This document shows positions 20,793 through 45,000 of a stretch of 64,000 nucleotides of DNA, piece after piece; the stretch's first letter is position 1; each line of letters opens with the position of its first letter. A program made the position numbers and the translations under genes. The DNA is taken from contig CACVBU010000522.1 in assembly GCA_902728285.1 (NCBI GenBank), forward strand, positions 552,316 to 616,315. The letters run 5' to 3'. Origin of the DNA: Clytia hemisphaerica. Taxonomy: Eukaryota > Cnidaria > Hydrozoa > Leptothecata > Clytiidae. The notes below the pieces were generated by a model. That model did no database searches. It saw only the letters and a list, made by a program, of their open reading frames with translations, and was not told the origin of the DNA.

Positions 20793-22286
20793 ATGTTGTA
20801 CGGCAAAGAAAAGACATCGATCAAAATCAACGACATTACCATCACGAAAGCCGTTAAAATATCGGTCATACATTACGCATTGTTAGCGCTTGTTATTACG
20901 TGTATCATCTTCAGAGCTCAACAATCCAACAAAAAAACCGATAGTCAACAATTACAAAACTTCTTCTTTTCACTACAAAATGACACTGAAAGCCAGCAAG
21001 AAATCAAATTTGATAACTGTGCATATTTTGTTGATGTACCGGCCACTGTATTGCCGTGGCAACCGTTTGAGATCAACATTCGATACAAAAAGAGCCCAAA
21101 GATGGAATGCACGTTCGATGACCAGGACGGAGGCTCCGTTTTTCGTGTCCAGTTGTACAGCATTTACGAGATGAGCAGCCAGACCATAGTCTACAAAGGG
21201 AACGGTACTTACTATGTAAACATCACTCTGACCATCCCAACCAAATATATCGCTATGGTCTTTGTGACGTATGTACATCATCAGGGAGAAGAGACGCGGC
21301 GCCACGTTAACCCGTTGCTAAGGCAACTACGAGGAAGCCCTTTCGAATTACTAGTTCTGAATAGAAATCAATCAAGTCCTCCGTTAGGATATTCAAAGTA
21401 CTGCAGTCGAAACGAAAGTGGGGTAGTGGCTGGACGTTGGGTGAAATGCGGCGCTATTTTCCCAAAAGTTGAGCAATGTGGACCTTGGCAAAGTGCGGAG
21501 TTTGACTTTGATAAAATCAACGGTTTCCATTGGTTACCTTACACGTGTCAGTATCATTCGTTTACCAACGATGAAATGAAGAAATGTTTTGCCAAGAACG
21601 GTTGGGACAGTATTGTGTTTGCAGGAGATTCGCACATGCGCTACAGGGCGTATCATTGGGCGTCACGTTTGTACGGAGGGTGTACTTCGTGCGTGAAAAC
21701 ACATATTCAAATGATTTTTGAGAAGACGCCCCGCATTGAGTGGATTTTCGATGCACGTGGAACGCGATTACCGTTAAGCTTCCACAATATCAGTCTCCCT
21801 TTCGAAAAATATATTCATCAGAAAGTTCGCCGTTCAAAATTTTCAAAACCTTTCTCTCAGACAGCATTGAAAAGCCAACTATTTTTATTAAACTTTGGCC
21901 ATTGGGTTTTACGTGAAAGCCTTGATCGTGAGTTCATGGAAAAGAAATTGCATGCGTACGGCCGCGCGGCTCAAAAACTGATCGCTCAAAAGAAAGTTGT
22001 AATATGGGTCAACACAGTCAGTTTACCTTGGAGAATGGATCGAGCCGTTAAAAATTGGCGGGAAAACACTTCCCCATATCGGGTCAGACATTTCAATCAG
22101 ATAGCCGATCGCATTTTATCGGGTTACGGTATCCCGATTGTTGACGCTTATTCCGTTTCGGATTCAAGAATCGGAGCTACTCACGATCAGACACATTTTA
22201 CGAAAAGGATGCCGGGAAATGAATATGGCGGAGTTGTCGAAAATGCGATTTCAAATATTATTTTCAACAAACTATGTAATAAATGA
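20793..22286 (+). CDS. NXPE-family-like type II membrane protein with PC-esterase (GDS/DxxH) domain
   Basis: A single exon of 497 residues. Residues about 24-41 (ISVIHYALLALVITCIIF) form a signal anchor, so most of the chain would lie in the Golgi or ER lumen. Residues about 80-200 form an Ig-like filamin-type module as in neurexophilin/NXPE proteins. The C-terminal half carries the NXPE/PC-esterase signature: a Cys-rich stretch with YCSRNESG, CGPWQSAEF and LPYTCQYH, then GDSHMR (the GDS catalytic serine block), and near the end THDQTHF, which contains the DxxH partner motif. This GDS plus DxxH pair is the catalytic arrangement of the plant TBL acetyltransferases and related PC-esterases, so an acyl-transfer or esterase activity on glycans is a fair inference. 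Length agrees with vertebrate NXPE proteins (about 550). The ATG at 20793 is the first in frame. NXPE genes are often multi-copy in invertebrates, but only one is seen here. Confidence 0.85.
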   Translation: MLYGKEKTSIKINDITITKAVKISVIHYALLALVITCIIFRAQQSNKKTDSQQLQNFFFSLQNDTESQQEIKFDNCAYFVDVPATVLPWQPFEINIRYKKSPKMECTFDDQDGGSVFRVQLYSIYEMSSQTIVYKGNGTYYVNITLTIPTKYIAMVFVTYVHHQGEETRRHVNPLLRQLRGSPFELLVLNRNQSSPPLGYSKYCSRNESGVVAGRWVKCGAIFPKVEQCGPWQSAEFDFDKINGFHWLPYTCQYHSFTNDEMKKCFAKNGWDSIVFAGDSHMRYRAYHWASRLYGGCTSCVKTHIQMIFEKTPRIEWIFDARGTRLPLSFHNISLPFEKYIHQKVRRSKFSKPFSQTALKSQLFLLNFGHWVLRESLDREFMEKKLHAYGRAAQKLIAQKKVVIWVNTVSLPWRMDRAVKNWRENTSPYRVRHFNQIADRILSGYGIPIVDAYSVSDSRIGATHDQTHFTKRMPGNEYGGVVENAISNIIFNKLCNK

Positions 22287-23929: not shown

Positions 23930-24782
23930 TAATTGCCAATTATCCCCCAGCAATGCTAGAAGTTTTCATAAAAATGCCAAATTTTGACTTTGGGGTGTGT
24001 ATTACATGCTAGATTTAGACTGGGTTTGGATCCTACTCTAAGAATACCATAAGAATACTTTCGGATGATTTCCCCCAAAAAGTTAAGAATATCCATGATG
24101 GAATGAAAAACCACTATTCTTATAAAAAAGATGTAAATTATTGATTGGGATAGAGATCTTCGATTAATGGGAGAGTAGGTTATTCTTATTCTAAACCACA
24201 CCCCTGTCTCATTATCCCAGTGGATATATGGCCCACCGGACTTTGATACGAGGCAGAAAGAGAAATTTTGCTTAAATTCAATACGTCAGAATTATTTTCA
24301 CGCGCAGTCGCCGAGTTTTGTAACAACAGAATCTTTGTTGTTAAGTTTGAAACATATTTTATATTGACTTGAAGGAAAGTGTTAACACATTTAAAGGATT
24401 ATTTGTTCGCCACTTTCTTTTACTCTCATCTATCTTGACTTGTTTATGAGAAAGAAATTGTTTGGAGTTGATCGTGTTAGCTTGATGACTGGCTTTGATA
24501 AAAAAATTTCAAGATAAAATCAATAATGAGTTTATTTTGTTTTGAGTCTCATTTTGGAAGACTGAGCGCGATTATTTTAAGGAATACCAAAACCTTTGGA
24601 CGGATGGTATGAACATGTTTTTGCGTAATTTTCGATGTTTGGGGACGATTTTTTAGCTGGTATTTGGTATAGAAACTGTAGAAGTGGTAGATCTGAACGT
24701 TTTTGGGGGGTAAAAATCATCTGTCCTTATGAGTATGAGTCGCTCGTCATCATCCAGGACTGCAACTATTTGATATTTGATA

Positions 24783-24979
24783 CACGCTTTTTTTAAATGT
24801 TTTTTTCCATTTCAAACCCTGTCTAAATCTAGCATGCAATACCTACCTCCAGTTTAAACTTAGCATCTTTGTGAAACCTTTTAACATTGCTTGGCAATAA
24901 TTGGCAATTGGAATTCTTACCCATATTTTTAATTTCTTGGTCAATTTCATCATAAATATTCTTATAATAAAAAAGCGTG
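24783..24979. mobile_element. TA-flanked MITE of the same family, shorter copy
   Basis: Left end CACGCTTTTTTTAAATG, right end CTTATAATAAAAAAGCGTG, with TA on both sides. The interior shares AATTTCTTGGTCAATTTCATC-like sequence with the copy at 23661. Confidence 0.7.
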
Positions 24980-25353
24980 TATTATCACCATTGTTCGACC
25001 ATAGGCACTTGAAGTCAACCTTGTCCCCGTGTACACCAGGCTTTACATTTACGTTATAAACGATGCTATTGTCCGTTTAGAGGGTCAGTAAACGCGGGAA
25101 AGTAATATATGCGCAGAGTCAGGGCGTCAGGGCGATTTACGGGAAAAATAGTGGCAGTAGACACCTCCGCCACGAACTGAACTCCGTTTTCAAATTTAAC
25201 CCGCCTCCTGAATTATTCCGGAGGAATAATAATAGGATCGTCTATTTACGCTACTGATTGATGCCAGAGAATACCCTGTTGGCTGGTGCAGAGATGGGAT
25301 AGTATCAGCGATTTTTACATCTGTAAAACCTGCCGACCTCTCTCCCCTGCATA

Positions 25354-25598
25354 CACGTTTCTTTATAAGAACAAACTATATGAGAACGTAAGGCTTTGAT
25401 GGCAAAATGCTAAGAACAAGTTTAGAACAAGGCTTTGTGGACTCTAAAGCACCCAGTTTTTTTAGGAAAATGGACAAAAATACCCACAAATGGTCAAAAT
25501 AAGAACGTTTTAAGTACATTTTTGGGCTTAAAACTCGAAAAGTTAAAAGCATTCAAAGAGTTTGGAAAAATCTTTGGCGCTTTTATAAAAAACGGGTG
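25354..25598. mobile_element. MITE copy, CACGTTTCTTTATAAGAAC type
   Basis: Begins with CACGTTTCTTTATAAGAAC and contains the family landmarks AACAAACTATATGAGAACG, AAGGCTTTG and AAAATGGACAAAAA. Its right end is mutated (AAAAAACGGGTG), so the repeat is imperfect. Confidence 0.7.
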
Positions 25599-26412
25599 AA
25601 ACTTAGACAGTGAGATGTCTGGCTAACAGACAAACACGGAACATATTTTCTTGATTCATTCATTAGTTTCAATTGATTGGCTATTTCTCTCTAACGAGCT
25701 CATAATAGATATATAATTATCGGGCTGTAACCACCAGTAATTGTAAGTTTTTCAGATGATATTTTCAAAGAGATGTTTCCCAGAAGAGAGAAATGTGAGA
25801 GGTTTAATAACGATCATCACAGGTCGTTAATCCTTCTTTGATGAAAAATTAATTAAAATGAGATTTTCTGTGGAAATGTATCGCCACTGTTACAATGCTT
25901 GTTTCTGAACTGTGAGAATATCAGTGTATCGTTCTTGTAATTTTTTGATATTAAGTACAAATAAATATTAGTGGTATGATGTGTTTTAGAGTTCTTGTTT
26001 TTCATTTATGTAGTGGCCATCACGGACCATCACTTCTCGATTCAAGCAAAGGGGTTGTCAAGTCTTTTCCGTCAGGTGTAATCAGTCAGACTCGTAGACC
26101 CGAGATATCCGTTATAAGCCATGGACGAGAGTCAGAGGTTGGTTTTCCGAACTTTCAAGGTCTTCTTTACTTCTACCAACTTCTTTTTTCTAAGGGGCTT
26201 CTAACTACCAACTTTTCGTTCAGTCACTTCTTTGGTGAAAGCCACTCTCCTGTTTGGATTAATTCAACTTCTGATGACGTCATCATCATCACCATCGCAT
26301 GTTGTTCTAATTATTTTAGTCGACCATTTTCAATGAGATTTTAAAATGTTTATAGCTGAAAGTTTGTTGTGAAAAGAATCTTTAACGTTTAATATTGACG
26401 AAATTTGTTTTG

Positions 26413-26529
26413 TCAGACCTATTTTGAGCATTTTGTCATGGCGAAAATAAGAACAGGTCAAGAAAGTTTTTAGGCTTAAAGCTCAAAAGGTTAAAAACAT
26501 CAAATTTTGGATGTTCTTATAAAAACGTG
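26413..26529. mobile_element. Truncated MITE copy (right half only)
   Basis: Ends GATGTTCTTATAAAAACGTG followed by TA, preceded by the family's AAATAAGAAC and TTTTTAGGCTTAAAGCTC segment. No left terminus is present. Confidence 0.6.
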
Positions 26530-26644
26530 TAATAATGAATCAAACTATCACCAGCCACAGTAGTCATTGGTCATTCCAACATTTGCCTTTACCAAAATTT
26601 GAAGGATTTGACTATTCTTTATGGCATAGTCAGAAAGGGTCAAA

Positions 26645-26858
26645 TACCGTAAGTTGATTTAATTTCGACACCCTTCTTTAGAGATAGGAGTAATGGTTGG
26701 AATCACTGGTTGAAACTAATTTTCTTTGCTTAGCAATCAGAGAGGAATAAATCTTTTGTCTATCAGTGATTCCGCCCTTCTTATTATTCTTATCTATAAA
26801 GAAGGGTGTCGAAATTAGAAGAGGGATGTTGACATTAGACCAACTTACTGTACAGTAT
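26645..26858. mobile_element. MITE with ACCGTAAGTTG terminal inverted repeat
   Basis: The left arm contains GTAAGTTGATTTAATTTCGA and ACACCCTTCTTTAGAGATA. The right arm contains TATCTATAAAGAAGGGTGTC, then GAAATTAGA and ACCAACTTACTGTA. The arms pair over about 40 bp with one insertion in the right arm. Confidence 0.65.
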
Positions 26859-26989
26859 GGAACTACTTTATTGTCACGAATTCCAAGCTTACATTCCAGT
26901 TAATATAATTTCATAATGGTGAATTGTTCTGTGATTGCTCAGACACCAAGAACTCTCATACATTTCAACATATTGACTGATTAGGGGTA

Positions 26990-27245
26990 CACGTTTTTTT
27001 TTTTATAAGAACAAACTATATAAGAACATAAGGCTTCGAGGCCCAAAAATCTAAGAACATTCTAAGAACATACTAAGGCTTTGGAGACTTAAAAACATGC
27101 AATTTCTTAAGAAATTACATCAAAATGCTCAAAAAAAGCTGAAAATAAGAACATTTTAAAAACATTTTTAGGCATCAAATCCAAAAAACTAAGAACATCC
27201 GAAGGCTTCGAAAATTTTTGACGTTCTTATAAAAAAAAAAACGTG
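26990..27245. mobile_element. Complete TA-flanked MITE, best copy of the CACGTTTTT family
   Basis: Starts CACGTTTTTTTTTTATAAG and ends CTTATAAAAAAAAAAACGTG, flanked by TA on both sides. Internal landmarks are AACAAACTATATAAGAAC, GGCTTCGAGGCC, AAAAAGCTGAAAATAAGAAC and CTAAGAACATCCGAAGGC. It carries no open frame, so it depends on a transposase elsewhere; TA targets suggest a Tc1/mariner-type source. Confidence 0.85.
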
Positions 27246-27494
27246 TATGTTCAAGACATCAATGTCTTACATAAGCTGACGTCAATTCTCTCTCCATCAA
27301 ATCATATTACTGAGTGTAAACAAAGAATTAAGAAGGATATCAGATAATGACATTCAATACCAAATATTGACACACCACATGTTAAAACACGATTACAGTA
27401 CCGGCCAAAGTCACAATTGATATTATTCAATAGCACCTTGCCATTCTCAAATGATCCTGGGGTCTTAGAGAGTTTCCCAGGAACGGCTACTGTA

Positions 27495-28543
27495 CACGTT
27501 TTTTTTTTTATAAGAACGTCAAAAAATTTCGAAGCCTTCGGATGTTCTTAGTTTTTGGACCTACCCCGGTGGGCTGTAGGTCCTATAAATTAACCTTTGT
27601 CCGTCCGTCTGTCCGTCTGTCCGTTAGTTACCAGCTTTTCTTGAGATTGGCTCATTAGTTTTTTCTGATTTTTTGCACAATGATGCAAAACGGCAATGCT
27701 CAAAATGTGACGGAGCCCGATTTTCGAAAAAAAAATTTTTCCGGCCGAAAATGGCGGAAATATGCCGGAAAAACTGGTTTTTCGGCATTTTCTCGAGATT
27801 TCATCATTAGTTTTTTCTGATTTTTTGCTCAAAGATGCGTATTAACAATGCCCAAAACATGGCCTAGTCCAATTCTTGAGAAAAATTTTTTTCCGGCCGA
27901 AAATGCCGGAAATATGTCGGAAAATCGGTTTTTTGATATTTTCTCGAATTTTCATTTCTAGTTTTTTCCGATTTTTTTGCAGAAATATGCGTATTCGCAA
28001 TGCTAAAAACATGGCCGAGTTCGATTTTTGAGAAATTTTTCCGGTTGAAAATGCCGGAAATCACCGTTTAGTTTACTTATATTTATATGCTTTTCACACA
28101 AAAACATTATTCATAACAATGCTCACCATCAAGCATGATTCAATTGTCAATAAAACTGATTTTTGCGACCAGAACTTCCTATTTATTATTTCCCTACAAC
28201 CCTTCCCTCTCCCCCCATCAACAATCAATGATGAATTTATTGTGCTGTGTATTTTCGCTAAACGCTTATTTTCTGACTGATTTTTTTCATTTTTCTTTTC
28301 GCATTGCTATCTAACTTTCATCATCAGGTAAGGTAGGTCCATTCAGCATATTGCTTGTTTGGATTTGAAGCCTAAAAATGTTCTTAAAATGTTCTTATTT
28401 TCAGCTTTTTTTAAGCATTTTGATGTAATTTCTCTTAAGAAAATGCATGTTTAGGTCTCCAAAGCCTTAGAATGTTCTTAGAATGTTCTTAAATTTTTGG
28501 GCCTTATGCTCTTATATAGTTTGTTCTTATAAAAAAAAACGTG
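27495..28543. mobile_element. Inverted copy of the CACGTTTTT MITE, split by a nested insertion
   Basis: Read on the minus strand, the outer parts (27495-27559 and 28358-28543) match the copy at 26990-27245 end to end. The match is broken at GTTTTTTGGATTTG by about 800 bp of other DNA. TTTGGA occurs on both sides of the break (27554-27559 and 28358-28363), a possible target-site duplication. TA flanks the outer ends. Confidence 0.8.
27560..28357. mobile_element. Nested insertion with three tandem units of about 150 bp
   Basis: Lies inside the MITE at 27495-28543. The left end has GGACCTACC and the sequence near the right end has GGTAGGTCC, an inverted pair. From about 27631 to 28070 three units repeat: each has a TTAGTTTTTTCTGATTTTTTG-like start, then ATGCG, GCAATGC, AACATGG, then TTTTTCCGGCCGAAAATG. 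The gene-like open frames on the minus strand here are readings of this repeat. Confidence 0.65.
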
Positions 28544-30442
28544 TACATCAATACCTAGAACAGTCACTCACAGGCTTCTTCAGTTTCTGTCCACCCAATT
28601 CTCCTTACATGACATGTGTTAGTCCTGGAATAACATTCACTTGCCTAGGCTGCTGGCATCGCCTAACGGATTCGTGCTCCTTATATACTCCTTGCAGTTT
28701 TGTAGAGGTCTGCAATTCAGACTATCACTTGCCAAGCAGTGCCAAGTAAATAACAGCACCGAGTGGGAATCAAACACTGACTTCTTGTTTAAACAGCCGT
28801 ACTTTCAATCCTGCGGATTAAAACATTTCAGCCTATAAAAGATAATTTCATCTTAGCGGTCCCCTTTAATCGTTATGGTTGTCATCAATGGGGAGTGATC
28901 GCGATGGGGAGGGGGGGTTGGCCATTCTATATCTTAAGAATTCCGAATTCATCCGATCTTTTTTTCATCAACCTTTTGGAATTTTCTTTCACATCTTTTT
29001 AGTTTTACTTTCCTTCTTGGATAGCAAAAAAAAAAAACTCTATTATCTTCTGAACGTAGAATTTTGACAGTCGCTCCTCGATAAAGCTTCTAAATTATAT
29101 AATAATTGACAGTCAAATGGTGAAACAGTCATCTGAACAGTTTGAACATTCTCTGTCTGTATTAGGAGATATGTAGTATACTGCCAATAAAATGACACAA
29201 AAAAAGTTTTGAATGACTCAAAAAACAAAAATCTTTCATCAACTTGTCAAAAAATGCTTTGGTTTCGGGTTCGAATTACATTTGCTTTAGATAGAGCACC
29301 GTTGTTTGCAAATAAGTACAAAAAAATGAAGAGAAAAGAGAAAATTTAGAATGATGAATCCTTAAAGCGAATAAAATTAGTGTGTGTGTGTCTTACTAAG
29401 CCTGTGTGAAGTGACCTTTTACTGGTTTTATTTTATAGAGAAATATGAAAAAGTTGCTTCAGTGGAATGACGAAGGGTGAGTGATGGGTCAAAAATGTAC
29501 AGCACCTCAAATACTACAAGATGATGAAGTCTTCAAAAACAACTCAAAACAAAACAAAACAGGTTGGTGCATGTTCTCTCACATTTTGTGTTTTGTTGAC
29601 ATGGATAGATACATTTCATTTAATCTGCTGAAACCCGCCCTTCTTTGTCTGTTTACGAAATCCGCCCCGTTTCGTCTGTCCTTGATACCTGCCCGTTTTC
29701 TTCTTTTGTTTTTGAAACCCGCCTTTCTTTGTCTTTTTGGCATCATCAAGATTTGAGGTTGTTATCGCTTTTCACGGTTCGTCGATAACATTCAGTTAAA
29801 AAGGTTTTATGATTATATTTGAGGTATTCATATAAATGTGTCAGACAAAAATAATACTATTAGAGCGTCTTTATCGCGTATTCCCTTCGCTCGTTTCGTA
29901 ACAACTCGACAATTTGTAATGAAATTATACAAAACAAGAGCTTTTGAATGCTAAAAGTTCATTCATTTTGTCCTGTAAGTGAATACTTCAACTTATTTCT
30001 CATTTTGTCATATAAAGACAGTCGAGAAACTTGACCTCAAGGTTTTTTAGTAAAAGAAAAAATCTTTTGACGAAGGTTTGTTAATCCAAGATGAATTTAT
30101 AGTGAACGAAAAATGACAACTTCTTGTTTTGAAAAGTTTTATCAGAGATTTCGATCACTGGTTTTGTCTGTTAAAAGGAAATCAATGCATTAAGTCAAAG
30201 TTTTACGGAGAGCGCGGGAGAGTTGTCGAGTTGTTGTTTGATCAAACTTTAATGTCAACATTCGGAACAAAAAGGATACGTTTTATTAAAACAAATATCT
30301 CACTCCTCTTATGACACTTCAAATTTAATAAAACCACCAAGTCAAAACACAGTTCGCAAATAAAACTTCTTATGTGCTAATGCATGTGTTGTTTTGAGTC
30401 TTTATGAGAGAGTGAAGCTGTTCATAGCGCAAACACACCATC

Positions 30443-33400
30443 ATGAACTATACTCAATTTCTGTACGGTGGGATTTCAGTGGCTTTCATATTCGTTGTAG
30501 GATTTTATCTGACCAATCGGAACCGTCGTAAAAGTTCCACATCTGACCAAACCAAAGATGAGAAAAGGCGACGTCGTAAATCGTCCGCCAAAGAGACGCA
30601 AGACGGGGTGACGTTAAACGGAAGCGTCAGGAAACGCACGGGAGAGAAAAGTAACGGGAATACGGAAACGTTAACGGTATCACCATCCACAGATCAAGAT
30701 GAATTCGTGTTACAAACATTTTGTAAAAGTCCTTTAACTCCACACAAAAGGTTATCTATCCATCATGGACATGATGATTTTGCTTTCGATCGACCACAAG
30801 ATAAAGACGATGGAAAAATACGCCATGTTGATTTTGATGCTATTTCAATTGCAAAGGTCACGGAGGAACAATATGCAGAAAGTTTGGATGAAAATAGGAA
30901 TAGTGAGAAAATGAAAGATGTGACTATGGGCCAGGGACACGGTAAAGAGGATCAACTTGCTGAAAATGAACCTAAAACTGTTGAAAATGAACTAAGAACT
31001 GCTGGAAATGAACTAAGAACTGCTAAAAATGAAGAAGCAAAGCTTTATAAAGATGTTGATGCTTCAGAGATCATCTTTGAAGAGGATTCTCAGTCGAAAG
31101 ATGAATCAAAAAGTGAAAATTCAGAGGTACTCGTGAAAGTCAATGAATTTGTTGAAAGTAATGAAAATAAAATTGACGAGAAAGAGAGACAAATTGTTGA
31201 AACTGGAATTGTTGAAAGCGTGACCGAAAATGTTAATAGAGAGCCACCTGCAAAAAGATTAAGCAAATTTAAACTTTTCGTGTTTCAAGAATATGCAGAT
31301 CGAATGAGTGATCGTATCTTATCGAACACTTCCACGACGTTAGATCAGTTTCATGATTCACAAGTGGATTTCGCTGAAGACCTCTCGCTCACTGTTTTAT
31401 ATGAAGCCAGGAAAGAAGTTTATAACAACACGTCCACAAGCACACAGGCTAATGATGAGGAAAATAACAATAACGAAAGTACGCTTGACATGATAGCGGA
31501 TAAACTTGTCGATCAAATTTTATTTGGAAAAACTTCTCCTCAAAACAAACTTGCTTCAACTGCTACTATAGAGAAACCACCAGAACCTTCTGAAAAGGCT
31601 GCTATTCCCTCTGATTCAACAATATCTGTAGAAAATGATAATAAACTTGATGTCGAGGACGGAGCGATCAAAACGGACTATGGCCGCCCACTTTCTGGTT
31701 ACGCCAAAAATTTAGCAGATTTCCTCGCAGATGATGATGAATTTGAATTAAGCGATGCAGAGGATGAAGATGCAAAAGAGGAAATTGCTAGACCAAGGTC
31801 GGTTGGGGCAAGACCAAGCAGGGAGGGAGCTAGAGACAGTCAAGAGGAGAGTGATTACGAAGACACAGAAGATGACGAAGACGAGCTTTCGGATGACGAA
31901 GATGAAAGTTTTCTTGACGAGGAAAATGTTTCTTTTGAAAATGACGATGAAAGGACTACAATTTTCGTGAATGCTGATTTTGTTGATGATGAGGTAGCAA
32001 AGAAAGAAAAATTAGAAACAAAAGAATTTGAGACTCAAAAACTACAAGAACCTTTAGAAACGAGTGCTGTTGAAAAACAAGAACCTGAGATTAAGATAGA
32101 AACGGAAAACAAAAAAGCCAAAACATCACAATATGCTCCTGCAGTGAAGCGACGTCAAAATAATCGGCGCACGAGAGGAGAGCGTCCTAAGAGTTTATAT
32201 GAACAAGATCTACAGGAGATTTTCAACGAGATTAAGATGCCGGCAGACGAGGATGGCGGCAATGATGATCAAGATGACAGCAAAGAGGTTTTGGAGGATG
32301 GTATTAAGCCAGTGTCGGAAACGATGAACTTCTTGGAGAATCATATCGAAGCGAAACGAAACATGATGAAGAGAAACGAAGAAGAAGAAGAAGAATATTT
32401 GATGATGGACGAAGATGAACACGTTTCAAACAATTCAAGTGATTTGCTGGGTTGTCAAAAAACAAAGAAAGTCTCACAACAAAAACGTGAGTCTGCATTT
32501 TTGATATCCCTCTTCTCTCTTTTTGTTCAATCACTGATAAAGTTATATCATGTGGCGTTTATACCTACAAATACCTAAACTAAACCCTGCTTTAAAATAA
32601 AAATACAGTGGAAACGAAAAAGGGAAAATTTTGACAGACTTTATTCCGAAGAAAGCAGCCTGTTGATTATCCTCCGTTTTATCCTCCATGGTAAGCTTTC
32701 TGTGGCTTATTTTCCCAGCAATAGTGTCCTTGCTTTCATAAGCTTTCAGTCAGTTTATCGAGATCTAAAAAACATTGTTCTATTTTCTTTCAGCGCCAGT
32801 ACTTGGTCGCGCGGCCGTTATTGATTTTGGATGTGGTGCTCTGAAAGCAGGTCTTTCAGGGGATATCCGCCCGTCATGTTACTGTCCGTCAGTCATCGGC
32901 GTACCACGGAGGTTTTCTCAGGACGTCAGTAAAATGAAGAAAGGATTTTACGTTGGTGATGAAGCATGGGAGATTGCTGGTATGTTGCAGATCGGTAAGT
33001 TTGTTTGTTCACACATACATTCCAAAATTAATTATTACTAGTCCAATTCAAATTGGGGAATTCCATTGAAAAATTCCACTCACCCAAAGGATAAAGATTT
33101 CCGAAAAAATTGTTTTAAAGTTTAAACAGGTATACTCAATCACTATGATCGAGTTCAAGTTTTCCTTGGAGCACGTTTCCTCTAATTTTCCATCTTTTCA
33201 TTTAATGACGGTCTTACCTCCGCTCTTTTCTCCCTTTGTTCACAGAACATCCAATCAAACAAGAGATTAACAACTGGTCGGACATCGGCAACATTTTTGA
33301 ATATCTTTACGATGAAGAACTGAAGATCAACAGTAACGAACATCCCATGCTTCTCACTGAACCTGGCCTTACTTCCTCAACTCATCGAGAAAAGTTGATT

Positions 33401-36400
33401 GAGGTCAGTTCTTCCTTTACTCGGTGTTTCTCCTTTGAGGGCTGGTCATTTCTAGAATTGATACATGCCCATTAGATAACTGTGACTGAGGAAAAAGTGA
33501 TAGGATAGGAGCTTATGACATAGTGTCCTTCAGGGTCTCTCCCCCCCCATGCCTAGAATGAAAATTTTCCATTCCCCCCTCATTTTTCCCCACCCTGCCT
33601 CCAAAAATTTCTCTGTCCCCCCCCCTCAAGCAAAAAATTAAAAAGCTGTAATTTGATGAACTTAACGCTTATTGTTTTCCCTATGGTAGTTCTAATTCAA
33701 GAAGAAATGGAAAGGATGGTTGTTTTTAAACCATAATATTAATAAAACTAAGCATTATGCTATATCATCTCATAAAACTAGATGTTTTTCAATTTTGAAT
33801 TGATTTTGGTGAGTTCCCCCCCCCCATGCCTAGAATGAAAATTTTCCATCCCCCCCCCCCCCTCGTTTTTTCCCCACCCTGGCTTCAAAAAAAATTCTTT
33901 CCCCCCTATACGTCCTTTTGACCTCAAAACCCATTCCCCCCCCTAAATTCAGGGGGGGGAGGACACTATGTTATGAAATAAAGCTAGGCGAAAGTTTTTC
34001 CCATAATTTGATTTACCGATTTTAGTTTCATATAATAACCTATACCAGAGCGTTTCCATTAGGGTTTGGAATATTTCTGGTTGATTGGGAGAGATATTTC
34101 AAACATCTTTCTGCAATATACCAGCAGGGATCATAAACTTGCTTGTGCGAAAAAGAAGATATCTCTCCTTCAAGATTTCACACGTTGAATTTTTTCCAAA
34201 GATACATTTATATTCTCAATTTTCAGGTTATTTTTGAACGATTCAGCGCTCCATCTTTGATGCTGGCAAATCAGAGCTGTTTGGCGCTTTATTCAAAAGG
34301 TCTGGTGACAGGATTAAGCTTGAACTCCGGATTCTACTTCACACAATCAACGCCCATCTACGAAGGTCACGCCCTTCCGTACGCCACCACCCAACTGGAT
34401 ATCGGCGGAGACACAATAACTAATTATTTGAATCGGAACATCATGTCAACCCAGGGCCATCAGTTCAATACATCTTCAGAAAAATTACTCTTGAACTCTA
34501 TGAAACAAGATCTATGTTACGTAGCATTAGGTATGTAGCAAATTTATTTACTATTAACTTTCCTATGGATTTTCTAGTCTTCGAATAGACGTTTTCATAA
34601 ATTACGTCACGAACATCACTTGCCTCATATTCAAACAATTGCCATAGCGTGTGAGACATTAAATCGTTTTTTATGAATAAAAGTAGTTTTAATAAAATCC
34701 GCTTGGATTAAATCACCATGACAATAATTTCAAAACGAGGCAAGTGATGTTCGTAACGTAATTTATGAAAAGGTCTATCTTGGAGAAAATGTTATTAAAT
34801 ATAACATTTTCAATTAAGTTAGAGTTTACCTTGTGGGTAACAATATTATAATTTTCTTCGATTACATTGAGTTGATATGGGTATAAGGGTTTCGGACCCT
34901 GATGGTTTTTAGGGGTTAGGGGTAGTGATACAGGGGTGCTTTGAATCTTTACTTGGGAGGAATATTGGGGAACTTTGAAACTTGACATGGGTAGAGTAAC
35001 CACCAGGGTTGACAGGGCTGTTTGAAATATGATAGGAGTTTAGATATAGGGTATCTAAAGTTTGGCAGCAGTAGTAGTGGTATACAGTGGTATTTTGAGC
35101 ATTGATAGAACCAGAGACACGCATATGATTTGAACTTTGACAGATATACAGTGGTGTTTCAGATTTGACCGAAGTAGAGGAAAAGAGATGCATGGGATAT
35201 TTGTAGTTTTAGAGACACCGGATAAGGGGGTTTGTAGGGGTTCGAAATACCGTTTTCCCGTCAAAATTTTTGCTGAATCCCGGAATCCCGAAAATTGAAA
35301 AAATAATAACACCGTCACACCGGCTTGTACAGGGCAAAAATGTACCTAAATACCGTCACCGTCTGATTTTAAAATACCGTCACCGTCTGATTTTAAAATA
35401 CCGTTTTCCCGTCTCTTTTTTCGTCAAATCCCGTAATACTGTACTAAAAAAGGGCCAATCCCGTCACACCGTAAAAGTACAACCCCCCCCCCTGATAAGG
35501 GGATTTTTGAATCTTTACAGCTGTAAAAAACTATTGGCGTTTGGTGTTTAAGGTCTATCAGTTGAAGAGATGATGGATTGTTTGAAATCTCACATGAGTA
35601 TAGATACATTGTATTCAAAATTTGACATACTTGTTTGAAACTTAGAAGGTGAACCCTGATATGTGTGAAGATACAGGGGTGTACGAAATGGCGGTATTTA
35701 AACTCGACCGGTTTGTAGAGGAATAGCAGTGTTGTTCAACCTTTAAAGGAATAGAGATATAGGGTTGTATGAATGTCCGAGCAGATCCTGATGACTTTGC
35801 GCATGTCACGTATCCAAGGTGTGACTCTGTAGATCTGCCTAATTTCAGAGCACCGCTTTGATAATTTTCATCCACATTTGGGATATTAAATAAACTTTTG
35901 AGTGCAGTGATTTACCTATGCAAGAATTCGTCACTTAAAATCAAATATCAATAGATATAAACCTGAGAGTTAAGTCAATTTTGCTTTCGTTTTCAAGGAA
36001 AATGCGACGCGTTTTTGAGTGTTTCGTCTTAAGAAGCATCGTCAGATCGTCACATTCGCCATATCCCTTTAGAAGAGAGCGTGGTATACGCGTCAGAATG
36101 AATGATCTGTTATGAGATTAGATGTATGAACCTTAACATTTAATATTTTTGTATTTAACAATGATTCAGTGCTCATCTGACGGGTCCCTAGTCTTCATTT
36201 TTAAGGTACCCGAGAGTACTAAACATTTCATTTCTTTCGACAGACCCCTCATCAGAAGAGGAGAAATATCGAGACCATCCGGATAAAATGAATGAATCTT
36301 TCGCATTACCGGACGGTCAAGAAATCACCATCGGTCTCGAACGTTTTTCCACACCTGAAATCATGTTTGATCCTTTGCTGATCGGCATTCGGAATCAACT

Positions 36401-39388
36401 GAACGTCGTCGATACCGTGCTCGAGAGCTGCTCCAGGTAAGATTCACTCTTGAAGTGGTTGCGATTCTTAGCTGAAGAGAGGAGGAGACTTAATCTAATC
36501 ATCAAAATGTAGAGTGATGACTAGTGTGTATAGATTTCCTTTCTAGCCCGAAGGCAAAAAAAAGCCCCAAGCAAAAAAAATTGACTAATGCAAGAAAAAT
36601 AGTCGCTATTGTTTTCGAAAATCCGCGAAGCTTCTGATTAACTATTGTAATGTCACGTGACTTAGATAGGATTTCCTACCTAACCCCGACACAATTTTCA
36701 GCCAAAGCACGACACCTAGTCCTTCAGGCTTTATAAATCCGTGAGCTAAACAGTCATTGCATTTCTAGCGCATGCGCAGAATAATTATTCGCAACAAAAG
36801 AGTTGTTCCAAAGGGTTTGGTGGGCGGAGAGAAAAACATGCAAATTTCAATAGCTTCTTTAGCTACGATACACCAACGAAATCATTTTGATTGTCCTGTG
36901 AGCTGAAGGAAGTGAATACTGCTCAAAACTTAACTTGGTGATAATCACCTCCCTGTCATTTCCCCCAACTTTTTACGTAACTTGTTTGTTACAACAGAAA
37001 TTTTCAGGAGCAACGAACCAGAAGTGACAGTTTAAGTGCCTCATTAAAGAAATTAATGCCCCCCAGTCACTTAATTATCGATTGCATAGATCATGCAACA
37101 ATTAAATACCCTTCGATAAAATCTCTTACTTTCATGAACAATTCTTACACCATAATGAGGTGGTTACCATGGTAACATGGATTATTACTTCGGTTTTTGA
37201 CAAATCATCATGACGTTGCATCACATTAAATTCGCATTTTGGATCGTTAGTTTCACATTAGTATATTTTTCACTCACAGATCAATTATTATGTGACACGT
37301 AAATGAACTTTCTATGAACTATGAACAGTCCATCACTGTGGGAAGATAAACATTTTAAGAACCGATTAAAGGCGTCCCATTTTGAACTCTTCAAAGGTTA
37401 ATTTTAGTTCCTTAATTTTGTCCAGGGTCAGGGTGGAAGACTGCGACCTCGACTTAAAATTAAATGTCATTTCTCTAAAAGTATCTTTATAATTACTACA
37501 TCACACTGCGACTAGACTCTCTGCTGGAATAGTGAACCAGTCGAGGTTGTATTTGGCTTTTCCTTCAATTTTATATTCCATTAACACTGTTCTCTTAAAC
37601 CCTGGACATAAGCTTGTAGACTTTTCGAAAACCAATGAAGAACGATCTTTGGATGAACAGTACATCATTTTTGACTGAATATTCATAGCGGTAGTTGATG
37701 TTTTAAAATGTTAAGCGAAAACTCCTTAACTTAAAACCTCAAGTCTATGACCACATCAATTTTGCTGTTTTAGGCTCAATGAACTTACCAGAAAGTCATC
37801 AAAAGCTCCCAAGTTTTATGAAGATCGGAACCCTGATTTATGGCCCTTTCTGATTCCGAAAATGAAAATGCTCATAGTAGCCTAAAATAAAACTGAGTAA
37901 TCAGAAAAAGGCGCTGACGTCATCATTAAATTGCCTACTGTAGGCAATTTAATGATGACGGGTTATGTCTTGCGATGTTTATGCGTCTAGTATTTGAAGA
38001 ACTTTATATAGAAAAAGGTTTTGGCCATTTTGATCTTTATAGCTCATAGCTCCTGTACTATATGTGGAGCTACCAGAGCTACCACTAAAAAAATAAAGTC
38101 CCCGTTCAAACAATTTTCTTTTTTTACGCTGAAATAAGTAAAATGTCACAAACACCTTCGTCTGTTAGATCTAGATGTTAGATTTCACGTTCCAAAACAA
38201 AATGCAAAGTTTCAGTCAGAAAAAAGTGGAAATTATTTGACCTGTGACGTCATATTGTGTTTGCTTCGTTCTTCGTTTTCGTAGTGTGACCAAGGAAGGC
38301 AATCATGATTCTTCCCCGCTTTGAGCACGTGATCGTGGAAGTCAACAATGAAATAATAACATCAAAAATTTAATATGTTTATTATTTATTACATCTGATT
38401 CAATAAAACTGAAGGTCAGCCGTTCTAGTAGCCTTTTTTCCAATACAACTTTCTGATATATGCGACGATTCATTGATCAATAATTTAATAAAATACTATA
38501 GTTGTACAACTGTAGAAATTGGAGAAAATTCCTTCAAGTACTAATTTCCACACAAATTTTATCATACTTTATAATTTGAAAATTTACCACATCTGAAATT
38601 CAGATGTGGATCTATAGTAGTATCGATTTTCTGAGTGAGAGTTCAAGCAAAACAAAAAGAGGGGGCTTCAGGGGGTACCCGATTCCGCTATTCCACCAAT
38701 TTTTCCCCGATTTCTGTTAAGCCGTCTAAAAAAGGACCGAAAATTACCTTCGCAAGAATTTTTGCTAAAATCCGTTTTGCCGCATTAAAGTTGTCCAATT
38801 TTCCGTCTCCGGACCGAAATTCTGTCTAAAATTTCGTCAAATTCCGCCACTCCGCTCGAAAAAAGAGCCTATTCTAACACTCAATATAGTCTACAATTAT
38901 CGCGGTATTTCTCTAGTTGACTTAAGTGCTTTTAGTGGTCTCTTTTAGGTCACTTTTATCGCTTTTTATTGAAGGAGTATGGTCGAAAGGGTAAGAAGTC
39001 AATGAAAACAATTTTATAATGACCTATGACACTTCATGATTATAATTACTTGGGTCAATTTTTGATACCAGGACTGAATTAACCTTTTAAATCATCTTTT
39101 CACCTTTTCAGGGTTGATGAGGATTTGCGAGATATTTTGTTTGAAAACATCCTTGTTTCTGGCGGAAATTCAAAACTGAAAGGCTTCAATCAACGTCTGG
39201 AACACGAGTTGAAGAAACAGCCTACAGACTATAGGATTACCGCCTTGAAATACGCAGATAATGCTCTACTTTCGACTTGGGTCGGAGGGTCTGTGTTAGC
39301 GTCCATAGCAGGCTATCGAGATCAGTGGATTTCCATGGACCTTTATGCTGAATATGGCGCAAACATCGTTCATAAAATGTGCTTCTGA
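30443..39388 (+). CDS. Membrane-anchored acidic protein fused to an actin-related domain (predicted)
   Basis: Six exons: 30443-32486, 32794-32994, 33246-33403, 34227-34530, 36244-36436 and 39112-39388, all GT-AG, in frame throughout, 1058 residues. Exon 1 (681 codons) starts with a transmembrane segment (FLYGGISVAFIFVVGFYL, about residues 6-23) and a basic patch (NRNRRKSS), then a long acidic disordered region. Residues 348-359 (LDMIADKLVDQI) fit the consensus for PKA-RII anchoring helices. Exons 2-6 encode 377 residues, the size of actin: VIDFGCG (phosphate loop 1), YVGDEA, TPIYEGHALPYA, TIGLERF, ILVSGGNSKLKG, and the end GANIVHKMCF matching actin's terminus. Phosphate loop 2 reads NSGFYFTQ where actin has DSGDGVTH. 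The join is supported by matching phase (donor AAAC|GTGAGT to acceptor 32794) and by no ATG opening the actin frame. The alternative is two genes: see the cassette at 32609. Confidence 0.72.
32609..32690 (+). other. Possible cassette exon that would separate the acidic and actin parts
   Basis: An acceptor-like TACAG ends at 32608 and a good donor (CCATG|GTAAGC) follows 32690. If included after the donor at 32486 it adds LETKKGKF and a stop (TGA at 32632-32634), giving an acidic membrane protein without the actin domain. In another frame the segment is open and leaves in phase 1, matching the next exon, but it has no ATG. The acceptor lacks a pyrimidine tract, so I rate its use as doubtful. 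Confidence 0.3.
33518..33976. mobile_element. C-rich repeat element with ACATAGTGTCC terminal inverted repeat
   Basis: Sits in an intron of the actin-fusion gene. The left end has GACATAGTGTCCTTCAGGG, the right end CAGGGGGGGGAGGACACTAT. Inside, a segment based on CATGCCTAGAATGAAAATTT occurs twice (about 33550 and 33828), each followed by long C runs and CCCCACCCTG. Confidence 0.7.
34586..34777. mobile_element. MITE, 40-bp inverted repeats (CATAAATTACGTCACGAACA)
   Basis: Left arm TAGACGTTTTCATAAATTAC and onward to ACATCACTTGCCTC; the right arm is its reverse complement with a few changes, ending AATTTATGAAAAGGTCTA. The loop is about 110 bp. Confidence 0.75.
34860..35880. repeat. Degenerate intronic repeat tract
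   Basis: Loose units of roughly 40-50 bp based on TTTGAA, GATATAGGG and ACAGTGGT recur through the interval. They are interrupted at about 35235-35490 by another element made of ACCGTCACCGTCTGATTTTA units (two adjacent copies near 35357 and 35385) and C runs. All open frames on either strand here follow these repeats. Confidence 0.5.
36437..39111. other. 2.7 kb last intron of the actin-fusion gene
   Basis: No exon-like sequence was found. It contains a perfect short palindrome (37918-37960) and, at about 38640-38870, an element with many CCG and TTTCCG motifs that resembles the ACCGTCACC element at 35.3 kb in style. The remainder is plain AT-rich DNA. Confidence 0.5.
37918..37960. repeat. 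Perfect 20-bp-arm palindrome with 3-bp centre
   Basis: CGTCATCATTAAATTGCCTA is followed by CTG and then by its exact reverse complement. It can form a hairpin in DNA or pre-mRNA. It may be the remains of a foldback element. Confidence 0.85.
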
Positions 39389-39638
39389 TCTCTGCTGTTT
39401 GTTTACAGTGATTTTATCACAAATATTTAGTTGCTTGAAAAAAATAGAAGTTCTGAAGTTTTGAACATTCAAACAAAAGAGTAGCTGCTTAGCTAACTCA
39501 CTTTTTCCAAACAAAATCATTTTGAAAAATGTCAATTCTATGTTAATTGATTTTTATTCCGCGTGGACTGAACTTCCCCATAGATTGAGGCGTGGGTAAC
39601 GTCAGTATCAGCCGCTAGCACAACGTCAGAATTAACTA

Positions 39639-40000
39639 CACGTTTTTTTTATTAGAACACCTAAATTATGGCTGAGCCTGGATGTGCTAATTTTTTTAGC
39701 AGTTTTCAGCCTAAAATGTTCTTAGATGCGTTCTTGATTTTTCAGGCTACTCTAAATCGACAATATCATGCAAAATAAAGAGCACTTAAAATTGGTACAA
39801 TTTGGACAATATTTGACTCTCGATTTTAGAAAACCCATCCCTAAGTTCGATTAAAACTGCTCGAAAAGAGGGAAAATTGTAGTTTCTTGTCATTTTTTTC
39901 CAAAATGAGGCTGGGCATGTTCTTACGATGTTCTTAATTTTTCGACGAATTTCAGCCGAGATGTTCTTATAAACTGGGTTCTAATAAAAAATAAAACGTG
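39639..40000. mobile_element. TA-flanked MITE, long member of the CACGTTTTT family
   Basis: Starts CACGTTTTTTTTATTAGAAC, ends TTCTAATAAAAAATAAAACGTG, with TA on both sides. The interior differs from the 27.0 kb copy and uses AATGTTCTTAGATG and GGCTGAGCCTGG motifs, so this is a sub-family. Confidence 0.75.
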
Positions 40001-40558
40001 TATTTGTTCTATTTACATAGTTCCATTCCTTCGGATTGGGGATTTTTACAAGATACTTCACTAATTGGTCATTTGAAGTGATAGAGATGACGCGTTCTTT
40101 AGAAAAAGTAATAAGATTCTTTTATTATATCTTAACGACCAACCAAATCAAACAAGAGCTTGTAAAAACTCCAGCCTGTCCCTTGGATTGAGGAAATATG
40201 TAATAACAAAATCTATTCCAAATTTTATGTAATTTTTCAAAAGTTTTTTTTTGCAAATAAATTATAAAAAGATAATGTAAAATATTTTCATAAAATATTA
40301 TATAGATTAAAAATATTTTTTCATCGAATTTTTAAGAGATGGCAATTTTTTATGCCTTTCTTTCTAATGTTATTTTATTGAAATTCAATTATTTCCATCG
40401 AATTTGATGTTTCAAGACCAGAGTAATTTATCCGCAACTTTTAAATTGCCCCGATAAGATCCATTCGTTTTTTTCAACTAAAATAAACTTTGTCGCAACT
40501 GGAAATTTCGTCTGGAAGTTTCAGTAAGGGAAGTAAGAAGATTGTACAATTTTAGCAT

Positions 40559-40874
40559 CTTACTCTTAGGATCCAAATAAACCGCCCCCCCCCGCGCTGT
40601 TAATTTTTCGAAAATTTTCCAACCCCCCGGACTTATTAGGACCCCCCCCCCCGTTCATTAATCTCTAAGAATATTTTCAGCTGTCAAAGAGAAGGCCCCT
40701 TTTTTGCTCTAAATAGCCTGATTTTAGCCTATTTTACCTTATTTTTGGGTTTCAGAAGTACAATTTCCAACCCCCCCGGCAATTAGGTCCCCCCCGTTTA
40801 TTAAAATCTAGGAAATTTTCCAACCCCCCCCGTTTATTCGACCCCCCCCCCGTTATTTGGAACCTAAGAGTAAT
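40559..40874. mobile_element. C-rich element with TTACTCTTAGGATCCAAATA inverted repeats
   Basis: The left tip TTACTCTTAGGATCCAAATA matches the reverse complement of the right tip TTATTTGGAACCTAAGAGTAA except for one or two bases. The interior has several C runs with AATTTTCCAACCCCCC spacers. Confidence 0.75.
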
Positions 40875-42072
40875 CACGCTTCTAGAAAAAGTCAAATTAC
40901 AAGATGTAGTTAAATTGTTTTTCTCCGGAAATGAAAATTGATAATTACATTAAACAAGTCGTTTGGAATATTCGACAAAACCAGAAAAAAAATTGGCCTA
41001 TTTTTTAAAACAACAAGAATCTTAGCTTTTAAGATACTCAGAGAAAAACGAACCCCTTTCCACCCATAACTAGCCAGGTGCCGATAAGGTTTAAAATATT
41101 TTTTTCTGAAACTAAAAATATCCACAGATTATTAATAAGGATTTTGTTAAAAAGCGTCTGTTTCAAACTTAATATGTCTTTTCTTTTCAAGTTCAGTGAT
41201 GAATAGATATATTCGGGCCGTAGGCTCTTTGAGAGAGCAGGGTGGTCGTATCGCATGTCTGACGGACTGAAGTGAGAGGGCAGAGGTCAGAGTGCTACTA
41301 TTTGTTCAAAAATACTCTTTATAAAATACATCTTTTTATCTCCTTTTGTTCCTACAGATTAACTATTACAATTGATTAAAAATAAGAAAGAAAAAAATGT
41401 AGAATCAGAAATTGTCTTTTAACCTTCCGTAAAAATTTTTGAGACGTAACCACAGGAAAGTTTTGAGTGTGAAATCAAAAATGGTTGGACATCGTAACAC
41501 GCAAGCAAGCTAATATTTCAAATTCTCAATAGCTTTCAAAAAATTTCTTGGGTCTTATTCAAATATCATGGTTGTTGAAATTTATACTCTGGCTTTTGAA
41601 TGAATAATTTCTTGAAGGCATTGGTTTATGGGCAGGTGCTATATGGTCATTCGCTTGATACATTTTGATTTCTTTCAAACTGTCTAACAGGCATTTATAT
41701 ATTCGTAAACATTTCTTGAAATTTTTGTAGATCATAAAATCACGAAATTGTTTGCAGATACTTTGTATACATCGAAAAATTGCTGTAAAGTTGGTTTGGT
41801 TTACTAAAGACTTTGTAATTTGTTGGTCGGAATATTTGTTGAATTTATGTACAAAAAGTTGTTGAGCGTTTGCAGATCTACAATTGAACGGCGGGAGGTT
41901 AATTTCGTTTACAACCTCTGATCACAAATTCATTAACATCTCTTACTGTCTTGCTTGATCATATTTGCAATATAATATACAAGAAGAGGAAAGTTTTCAT
42001 TGCGTTTTACATACATTTCGTGTACTTCAATTTGTGTATTCAAAAATGTGGCTTGGGGTAGGTTTTCCAGAC

Positions 42073-45000
42073 ATGTATAGTAGCCATCACGTGACACAAA
42101 ATGACCAATACCTCCCGCCACACCACACGCCAATGAGTGAGCACCCTTCAATGATCACAGACTATAACCCACCAGTCATGAACGATTTCGTGCACTTCCA
42201 CCACCAAATGCTGACGTCAGCAAACTCAATGATGAGTAATAACCATCATCATCCCATCAACACAAGAGACATTCGACCTAATATCAATTCTAATTTGGCT
42301 CCCGTGCGTAACAGCGGTAGAGGCGAACGGCGGAGCGATCGACGTTACCGTGGAGGAGGAAGTGCGGGAAGAGGAAGTCGAGCCTCAGGTGATCGAACGT
42401 AAGTGAAGTCGTCGAAACATTTCAGTTATAGGTCTCAAATATTCTTGTCTCTCCATACACTCTCTGTCGGTTTTCACAGACAATCTTACAAATAAGTACT
42501 TGGCGTTCTCTTAAATTCATTTTCAATTCAAAATAAATTTATTTGATCTGATTTGAAAGGCAGAGACCACATTTGAAGTTTGAAACGGAAGTGCGCCTAA
42601 TTGAATTTAAGTTTTTCTCCTTTTTTGATGAGTTTTGCTCAGACACACTTATATGAAATTAAATATATTTTCCGCGGCAGAAAAAAGGTGTAGCTGTAAG
42701 GGCCTGTAAGACGAGAAAAAAGTACTTAAGTTTTATTTTTGGAGTAAGTGATTTGTTCTGTTCGAGAAAAAAATCGGTACTTTCCAATCTCTCGCTTATA
42801 TATAACTCATCAATTCATAAAAAAGGTGTTTGAAATAAATGTAGAATTCATGCACGTTACAAAAATTATTATAACTTGTTTAATTCGAAATTCGTGATCT
42901 ATTCATTCGAAAGATTAAATTGAGGGGAGAGACAAAAGGACTCTATCAACCAGTGGCGTTGTGGGAAAATTTTTCTGGAGGGGCCAAAGTCAATTTTTTT
43001 TAAATTGCGCCCCCTTCAATTTTCCAAAGTGGTGCCCCCACCCACCAGTTTCTAAACCTTTACTAATTCATTTGCCTAGACATAACGAGGAAGGAAATAT
43101 TTAGTGGAGAAGAGTAGATACACTTTTTTTTTTATAAGAACCAGTAAATTTTTGTTGAGGCTCGGCTGTTCTTATTTTTTTGGCACTTCGAGCCTCAAAT
43201 TGTTCTTATCCTGTTCTTATTTTTAGGGCAAATTTGGGGGTATTTTTGGGTTTGAACCCTAATTTCATTATAATTTGGCCCTTATTTTACCTAAAACTCA
43301 GCAACTCCAGGCTCAGGATTGTTCTTAAATTGTTCTTATTTTTTGGCATTTTTGAGCCTCATTGTTCTTATAAAATTGTTCTTATAAAAAAAAAGTGTAT
43401 ATCTTTGATGAATGGAAAAGCAGGCCCCACCATGGTTGGGGCCGACTAGAAAAAATTTAAAAATTGACTGTCAAGACACCCTAAATCACTAAATAAAAAT
43501 AGACAAATTTGACACTTGGTAGAGTGAAAAGAGACTTGAAAAAATGAAAAAATTGATGTTCTATGATTTCAATATTGTTGTCAACAAATTGGTCTTGGGG
43601 CACAGTTAGATTTTCATTTAATAATGCTATATTGTACACAAAAAAACTTATAAATTAGCTAGATTGCAAAGAAGTTACCAATTAAACTATATTGCGAGCG
43701 AAGCGAGCGAAAAAAAATTTTAAGTATTTTAAAATTATCTCAGTAAAGTTGGTCCTGGGCGCAATTTAAGGCGCATAAAGTATGATTTTTAAGATTGGGG
43801 CTTTTAAAAACATTTCTTTTGGCGCCCCTTGCTCTTCGGCGCCCCTTCAAAAAAGCTCCGCTGGGGGGGCCATGGCCCCCCCGGCCCCCCCTGCCACAAC
43901 GCCACTGCTATCAACATAAAAAACGGGCGTTTGATAAAACTTCGTTTCTAAAAATAGTTCCAAGACATCGAGAACGCATAAATGATCCATCGCTTCCCCT
44001 CTCTTTTTTCGTGCTCTTTATTCGTCTGTTTTCTCTCTCTATTCTATCAAGAAATAACATAGGCGTAGCAAGATACCCTGCAAAATTTATGAGGGAGTGC
44101 AGACGTTTATGACATATTCATTATCTTTTGATAAAACAAAGACAATACTTACAGTGCTGTAAAAACCGCTCTCATCCATAAATTTTGCTGGGTATCTAGC
44201 TACCCCTATGAATAATAAAAATTTGAGATGCTTACACAAAGACTCAGATATCATTACGATTTATTCTTTACTTCTCAAAAAGTTTCGATGAAACAGTACC
44301 CATGAACCTCAAATTAGAAAAGGCTTTTTATTAGCTTTTACTACACGCCCCATATTCGATCCCGCAAACGACGCCCTTTTGGGGCGGAATCCGAATGTCC
44401 CGGTTCTGAAACTGAAAATCCTCGGAACATCCATATTACGGAGCGGCCTTTGCAGATTTTCCATTTGCTTGCGAGTGATTTCTTTTTTTCGATTTTGACG
44501 GGGGCTTGCTTGTTTAATTCTAAATGAAAAAATAGATATTTAAAATATATTTTGATGATTTTTTTTAACCTTTACAAAAAGTTTTATAACAAAAACTACG
44601 AAATTCAGTATTTTAACAGTGATAAGTTTTCAAGAGTTTAGTTAAGATAATTAGTTTTTTTATTCGAACCCCCGGAATATTCACCATACTTCCTATCGAG
44701 CTCGGAAAAATTATTCCAGTGGAAAATTGGGGAAGAAAATGGAAGTTTCTCTACCAGAGAAAATAGCGAGGTTAAGCAAGAAGCTATCTATTACGTACGG
44801 AATCTATTACGTGAGTTTTTAGACTGGATCCGAGGCATTTTAGCCTGATTCCTAAAGCTTCACGGCATAGAGTAAAAAGAGGTTAAGCAAAAAAGGCGAT
44901 CTATTACGTATGACGTAATGTTTATTTTTCCGTATCTCACTTTCGGCCCCAACTTCGAAAATTTTCTTTTTCTTTCTTTCTTTTCCAGCTTTCTTGTTGG

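Follow-up and report, generated by a model that had tools for sequence, protein, structure and literature searches.

Few eukaryotic folds are as strongly conserved as actin, and it seldom serves as a module in multidomain proteins. The locus analysed here, from the hydrozoan Clytia hemisphaerica, raises the question of whether one gene encodes a single chain that carries an actin fold behind a membrane anchor, a long acidic region and a helix capable of docking PKA. The window, by which we mean the whole 64,000-nucleotide stretch of DNA that was analysed, corresponds to G000:C367:552316-616315 on the forward strand. Genome-wide searches were run against the organism's own assembly (417 Mb in 951 contigs).

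A six-exon gene joins a long acidic exon to a complete actin domain

One six-exon gene lies within the window (Table 1). Its exons total 3177 nucleotides, a length divisible by three, and encode 1058 amino acids with a single, terminal stop; the five introns are all GT-AG. Exon 1 occupies most of an open frame at 30428-32578 (+) that spans 716 codons from stop to stop and 711 from its ATG, and this is the only frame of at least 150 codons that overlaps 24000-44000. The gene model is thus confirmed as observed in the sequence, including the 681-codon first exon with a phase-1 donor and the in-phase continuation at acceptor 32794 that the first-pass annotation had described. That annotation had further placed a full 377-residue actin domain behind this acceptor. 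Pfam family PF00022 (Actin) indeed aligns nearly end to end, from domain residue 7 to 377 against profile positions 6-410 (E 4.8e-90; 302.5 bits, cut-off 27), and this full-length match above the curated cut-off places the domain in the actin superfamily. The actin part also has no in-frame ATG of its own ahead of the first strand, as had been claimed, and the frame upstream of 32794 meets a TAA at 32766.

Table 1. Coordinates of the gene, of candidate features within it and of related loci in the same genome. A slash marks the exon boundary at a splice donor.
Feature	Position	Strand	Details
Exon 1	30443..32486	+	681 codons + 1 nt; encodes the predicted anchor and the acidic, presumably disordered chain
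Predicted transmembrane signal anchor	30458..30514	+	residues 6-24, basic RNRRK next
Weak further candidate PKA regulatory-subunit-binding helix	31283..31321	+	residues 281-293, FQEYADRMSDRIL; matrix score 3.45; post hoc pattern
Best candidate A-kinase-anchoring helix	31484..31525	+	residues 348-361, LDMIADKLVDQILF; matrix score 12.97
Second-scoring candidate helix	31691..31732	+	residues 417-430, LSGYAKNLADFLAD; matrix score 10.56, matched by 5.3% of shuffles
Intron 1	32487..32793	+	307 nt, phase 1; disputed junction
Actin exon 2	32794..32994	+	begins about 5 residues ahead of the first strand
Actin exon 3	33246..33403	+	3' boundary at actin residue 121/122 (phase 0)
Actin exon 4	34227..34530	+	altered phosphate-2 loop, NSGFYFTQ replacing DSGDGVSH
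Actin exon 5	36244..36436	+	part of the in-frame six-exon join
Actin exon 6	39112..39388	+	C-terminus and stop
Second orphan actin gene	L040:5773-9969, L025:544-6923 = G000:C687:684872-695922		donor ACA/GTAAGT, phase 0
Provisional third locus	L043:7961-8131 and 8424 onward = G000:C827, about 1269960-1270490		PH-like exon, actin-like exon

Exon 1 encodes a predicted membrane anchor, an acidic chain and a candidate PKA-anchoring helix

A hydrophobic segment followed by basic residues is the pattern of N-out/C-in signal anchors of the endoplasmic reticulum (ER) or the mitochondrial outer membrane. Residues 6-24 have a mean Kyte-Doolittle value of 1.94 over 19 residues, the highest in exon 1, so that the membrane anchor proposed for this protein is well supported by sequence, as a prediction. 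The acidic chain that follows the anchor runs for about 650 residues and has no recognised domain. Because of the composition of exon 1 (13.8% glutamate, 10.1% aspartate) and the absence of any domain match, we infer that this chain is mostly disordered. Searches at E up to 10 found no Pfam family in exon 1, including any AKAP family, and no similar PDB chain; a search of the organism's own genome for an exon-1 paralogue (E up to 0.01, 26 candidates scored) returned the self-match only. A 21-base tandem repeat of 3.6 copies is present within the acidic exon at 30958-31033, with in-frame units reading NELRTAG/K.

The first-pass annotation had also assigned a PKA-anchor motif, without coordinates, to this protein. 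Candidate helices were scored on a matrix derived from eight presumptive AKAP helix sequences and compared with 3000 shuffles. The best candidate, at residues 348-361, has a score that is reached by 0.9% of the shuffles (p about 0.009), and two long open reading frames of another orphan actin locus in the genome, C687 (1456 and 1399 amino acids), score 6.75 and 4.39 on the same matrix. The eight AKAP peptides reach 19-29 on their own matrix, which makes the candidate weaker than known AKAP helices. A broad AKAP consensus matches the protein once, at residue 348, and matches 16% of 5000 shuffles as well. A PDB search with two helix regions returned no AKAP chain and one irrelevant match (E 0.75), and modelling residues 261-450 from the single sequence gave a structure too poor to be informative (mean pLDDT 43.6). 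On the side of a possible partner, the genome has five matches to the RIIa docking domain above cut-off; RIIa-type docking domains are also found outside PKA. A strict AKAP pattern and an RIAD-like pattern were drawn up with the sequence in view and carry no evidential weight here.

The proposed motif is plausible, with moderate statistical support at residues 348-361, but does not stand as an established one, given the frequency of chance consensus matches and the lack of an AKAP match in the PDB. We put the chances that a helix of exon 1 may bind PKA at about even. The fusion could also be real and unrelated to PKA, with exon 1 serving as a membrane tether and acidic spacer alone, a reading to which the moderate motif score, the presumptive peptides behind it and the chance rate of the broad consensus all lend weight. 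We nevertheless consider it rather unlikely, since the best helix scores above 99.1% of shuffles and stands well clear of the two other long reading frames.

The junction between exon 1 and the actin exons

The disputed junction pairs the donor AAAAAC/GTGAGT with the acceptor TCTATTTTCTTTCAG/CGCC, both in phase 1. Scored on a rough matrix drawn from textbook splice-site frequencies, the five introns of the gene have donors at 7.8-11.4 and acceptors at 8.0-11.5. The disputed donor, at 8.0, is the second lowest of the five and the disputed acceptor, at 9.6, is third; among all sites of the window they fall in the top 1.5% of 3369 GT and the top 0.9% of 3401 AG, respectively.

The frame of exon 1 remains open for 30 codons beyond the donor at 32486 and an AATAAA lies at 32596, inside intron 1 (expectation 0.42 per 300 bases in the window), which makes an exon-1-only product of 711 residues possible. 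Both features would fit a locus with two adjoining genes, namely a single-exon 711-residue membrane protein ending at 32578 and an actin-like gene with an N-terminus of its own, supplied by a true first exon, by a trans-spliced leader or by an internal start in the last part of exon 1. Hydrozoans are known to use spliced-leader trans-splicing, and this counts in favour of this arrangement, as do a strong donor within the gap at 32690 (score 9.2, with no upstream in-frame ATG) and the in-frame methionines near the end of exon 1. The last of these methionines begins the final 27 residues of the exon (counted by eye), and a transcript beginning within exon 1 could give a short, unanchored form.

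Codon usage argues against two genes. A codon log-odds measure, trained on the first 600 codons of exon 1 against the later introns of the gene, averages +0.34 per codon over the last 81 codons before the donor, which were held out of training, and -0.40 over the 30 open codons after it. For comparison, 30-codon windows of exon 1 have a minimum of -0.27, and intron windows have a mean of -0.64 (5th to 95th percentile, -1.23 to -0.20), both sets of windows overlapping the training data. Codon usage thus drops into the intron range at 32486, and the coding sequence most likely ends at the donor. The actin exons themselves score -0.30 to 0.00, so that this measure cannot by itself tie them to exon 1.

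The search for an alternative start of the actin part likewise speaks against separate genes. A scan limited to single exons lying within the gap yielded no credible one-exon ATG start among the 15 GT sites between 32487 and 32790; two of the 15 have an upstream in-frame ATG in the needed phase, and both are non-consensus donors. Trans-splicing at 32794 would put the first in-frame methionine at domain residue 48, which together with residue 64 makes up the in-frame methionines inside exon 2, both past the first strands. The same arrangement is also repeated at C687, though there too an in-frame ATG sits five codons before the donor. Taken together, these observations make two adjoining genes improbable, and the fusion of exon 1 to the actin exons is very probably real. 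The exon-level fusion suggested at first pass is in this respect well supported by sequence, with further support from the second actin fusion in the genome, whose N-terminal part is not recognisably related.

The actin domain has lost most of its catalytic residues

Among the best 60 of 165 PDB sequence matches to the domain all are actins, with 4efh leading. Identity to the organism's own conventional actin is 39% over 368 columns. Identities to its own Arps, whose names are presumptive assignments from sequence, are 36% for Arp1, 36% for Arp2, 30% for Arp3, 31% for ACTL6, 28% for Arp6 and 23% for Arp10, and identity to the domain of the provisional third locus, C827, is 22%; the Arp2, Arp3, ACTL6 and C827 rows are partial, and Arp5 and Arp8 were left out of the comparison. 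A tree of 10 rows, comprising actin and the own Arps, has no supported branch. Of the earlier description as an actin-related protein, the actin fold is thus upheld, but by identity the domain is no closer to the Arp classes compared than to conventional actin, the highest Arp identity being 36% against 39% for actin.

To place the domain functionally, we counted the positions kept relative to the own actin, with the own Arp1 as comparator, on position lists from the actin literature. At the catalytic, magnesium-binding and phosphate-2 positions (Q137, D154, G156, D157, G158, V159 and H161) the domain keeps two of seven (Q137 and G156), against seven of seven in Arp1, and carries the changes D154N, D157F, G158Y, V159F and H161Q. 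The phosphate-1 positions are better kept (4/6; Arp1 5/6), and D11, G13, G15, K18 and Q137 are all retained. The adenosine pocket keeps 4/11 positions (Arp1 7/11), the D-loop 3/13 (Arp1 5), the hydrophobic plug 4/13 (Arp1 5), the barbed-end groove 9/21 (Arp1 18/21) and the pointed-end and lateral contacts 12/24 (Arp1 16/24).

With two of seven catalytic positions, the domain falls outside the ATP-hydrolysing actins as judged by these residues, and the replacement of most ATP-hydrolysis residues suggests that it is probably a pseudo-ATPase. Judged from the nucleotide site and the groove, polymerisation has likely been lost as well. By its D-loop and plug counts the domain cannot be told apart from Arp1, so that these counts do not show the loss. 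Arp1 itself forms a filament, and a domain that still polymerises and uses ATP, in a protein that seeds membrane-bound filaments, would fit with these similar counts, with the alignment of the whole fold to actin at 39% identity and with the retention of D11, G13, G15, K18 and Q137. The five catalytic-site substitutions and the poorer adenosine pocket stand against such an activity, which we regard as quite improbable. The keeping of just nine of 21 barbed-end positions at the same time weakens the idea that the domain binds actin regulators.

The introns of the actin part fall, in actin numbering, at 68 (phase 1), 121/122 (phase 0), 222 (phase 1) and 284 (phase 2). The phase-0 intron at 121/122 is common to this gene and the conventional actin gene on contig C516, which argues against a recent processed retrocopy and points to an intron-bearing actin as the source.

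Other actin fusions in the same genome

The Pfam Actin profile has 43 exon-level matches in the genome. One locus, C687, combines a 1399-codon exon with six actin exons in frame, the junction running from 689068 to 689543, for a total of 5328 nucleotides and one terminal stop. Its actin domain is 45% identical to the own actin and 33% identical to the domain in the window, and keeps four of the seven catalytic positions. Codon usage falls across its donor from +0.35 to -0.55, the latter over 13 codons after the donor. The extension contains three NPF motifs, and a Pfam search of it (E up to 5) found no family. BLASTP (E up to 1) gave no match between exon 1 of the window gene and the two long C687 reading frames, so the N-terminal parts are either unrelated or unrecognisable as related. 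The ATG close to the C687 donor makes a short form possible there too. Upstream of this gene, on the same strand, there are more long frames, including ones of 485 and 1456 codons, which may belong to it.

With this second complete case at hand, the gene model in the window is less likely to be an accident. A pseudogene or an assembly join is extremely unlikely in any event, since the 681-codon frame and five more exons run without a stop or shift and every junction is near consensus.

At C827, one exon resembles the tail of a PH domain, weakly and below the Pfam cut-off (E 0.12), and ends at the phase-0 donor AAT/GTAAGA. An actin-like exon, NKDGTVIIDLGATTIRAGL, starts in phase 0 292 bases after this PH-like exon. 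We provisionally regard this locus as a possible PH-actin fusion.

Relation to known actin fusions and anchoring proteins

The view taken at first pass, that no comparable protein has been described, was too strong, since filactin and the POTE-actins also place actin behind a long N-terminal part. The extension of filactin is filamin-like. Filactin of Dictyostelium discoideum is described as a conventional actin extended at its N-terminus by a long additional part, with an actin domain extremely homologous to conventional actin (PMC2441452). The protein in the window likewise has a long extension ahead of actin. It differs in that its actin domain, rather than being near-identical, is divergent (39% to the own actin) with a broken catalytic site, and in that the extension is a predicted anchor and acidic chain.

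POTEE and POTEF of primates are chimeric proteins that gained beta-actin by retrotransposition; they also contain a cysteine-rich domain, ankyrin repeats and helices, and POTEF is reported to lie close to the plasma membrane (PMC8292509). The window gene is likewise a chimera with an actin domain. In contrast to the POTE-actins, its actin part is interrupted by four introns and is 39% identical to the host actin, and the Pfam search of exon 1 (E up to 10) found no family. Long N-terminal fusions to actin are thus known, and the window gene is a variant on these. The conserved Arps and ACTL6 have the actin fold in common with it, and by identity the window domain is no closer to the compared Arps than to actin.

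AKAP1 carries an N-terminal anchor, and we know of no AKAP with an actin domain. AKAPs combine a targeting part with an amphipathic helix of 14-18 residues (PMC13025221, PMC4516873, PMC4562273), and the membrane-anchored smAKAP and AKAP1 (D-AKAP1) combine a membrane-targeting part with a short amphipathic helix (PMC13025221, PMC4516873). The predicted anchor and candidate helix of the window protein resemble this layout. Among the papers listed from an open-access library, no actin fold behind a transmembrane anchor or fused to an AKAP was recognised. The predicted transmembrane anchor and the PKA-anchor-like helix would therefore be what remains new in the literature searchable here.

A tentative model for a membrane-tethered pseudo-actin

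We propose that the gene gives rise to one 1058-residue chain with a hydrophobic N-terminus, an acidic chain and a C-terminal actin fold in which the residues that handle ATP are largely replaced. The anchor would insert into the membrane of the ER or the outer membrane of mitochondria in the N-out/C-in orientation and leave the remainder in the cytosol, where the amphipathic helix at 348-361 could dock a dimer of PKA regulatory subunits. The actin domain, presumably devoid of ATP hydrolysis and probably non-polymerising, might recruit or sequester actin regulators from its tethered position or cap filaments. If the pseudo-actin provides such a fixed binding surface or cap and PKA is docked on the same chain, PKA and actin machinery would be kept together at one membrane. 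We hold the whole mechanism, that of a membrane-tethered pseudo-actin with PKA docking, tentatively and at slightly less than even chances; a chaperone-binding role for the pseudo-actin is equally open.

The gene may have originated by the joining of a long exon to an intron-bearing actin copy, and the genome of this hydrozoan seems to have seen this type of event more than once. A broader reading, which we consider rather doubtful, is that hydrozoans repeatedly made signalling and membrane scaffolds by joining intron-bearing, non-catalytic actins to long modules that are disordered or bind lipids, and that the window gene is a membrane-anchored AKAP with its own pseudo-actin, coupling PKA and actin machinery in one chain. 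If true, a membrane-bound pseudo-actin with a PKA anchor would constitute a single-chain link from cAMP signalling to the actin machinery, and repeated fusions in one cnidarian would indicate that the actin fold lends itself to recruitment purely for binding. Gene knock-down in hydrozoan embryos has reportedly been published; some hydrozoans are open to laboratory manipulation, and studies of expression, localisation and knock-down are thus feasible.

Other features of the window and assembly

Several further features were observed outside the gene. A 503-amino-acid frame at 20775-22283 (+) has an N-terminal segment that is hydrophobic; a Pfam search at 0.01 gave no match, and the frame looks NXPE-like. 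A reverse transcriptase fragment (RVT_1, E 3.9e-13) lies at 63562-63909 (-), near the end of the window, which is also the contig end. Elsewhere in the assembly, contig C900:1-14551 (L038, L039) is mitochondrial, with mitochondrial reading frames under a code in which TGA is read as W and a cox1 gene interrupted by the contig end; ARAGORN finds no tRNAs on this contig other than tRNA-Met and tRNA-Trp. The gene set and its order read as hydrozoan and place the host in that group. Within the window, an exon at 51223-51576 (+) encodes a bHLH region (HLH E 5.5e-6) and belongs to a gene resembling the aryl hydrocarbon receptor; a 40-residue piece matches an AHR structure (2.7e-9), and a PAS-like exon is visible by eye near 54144.
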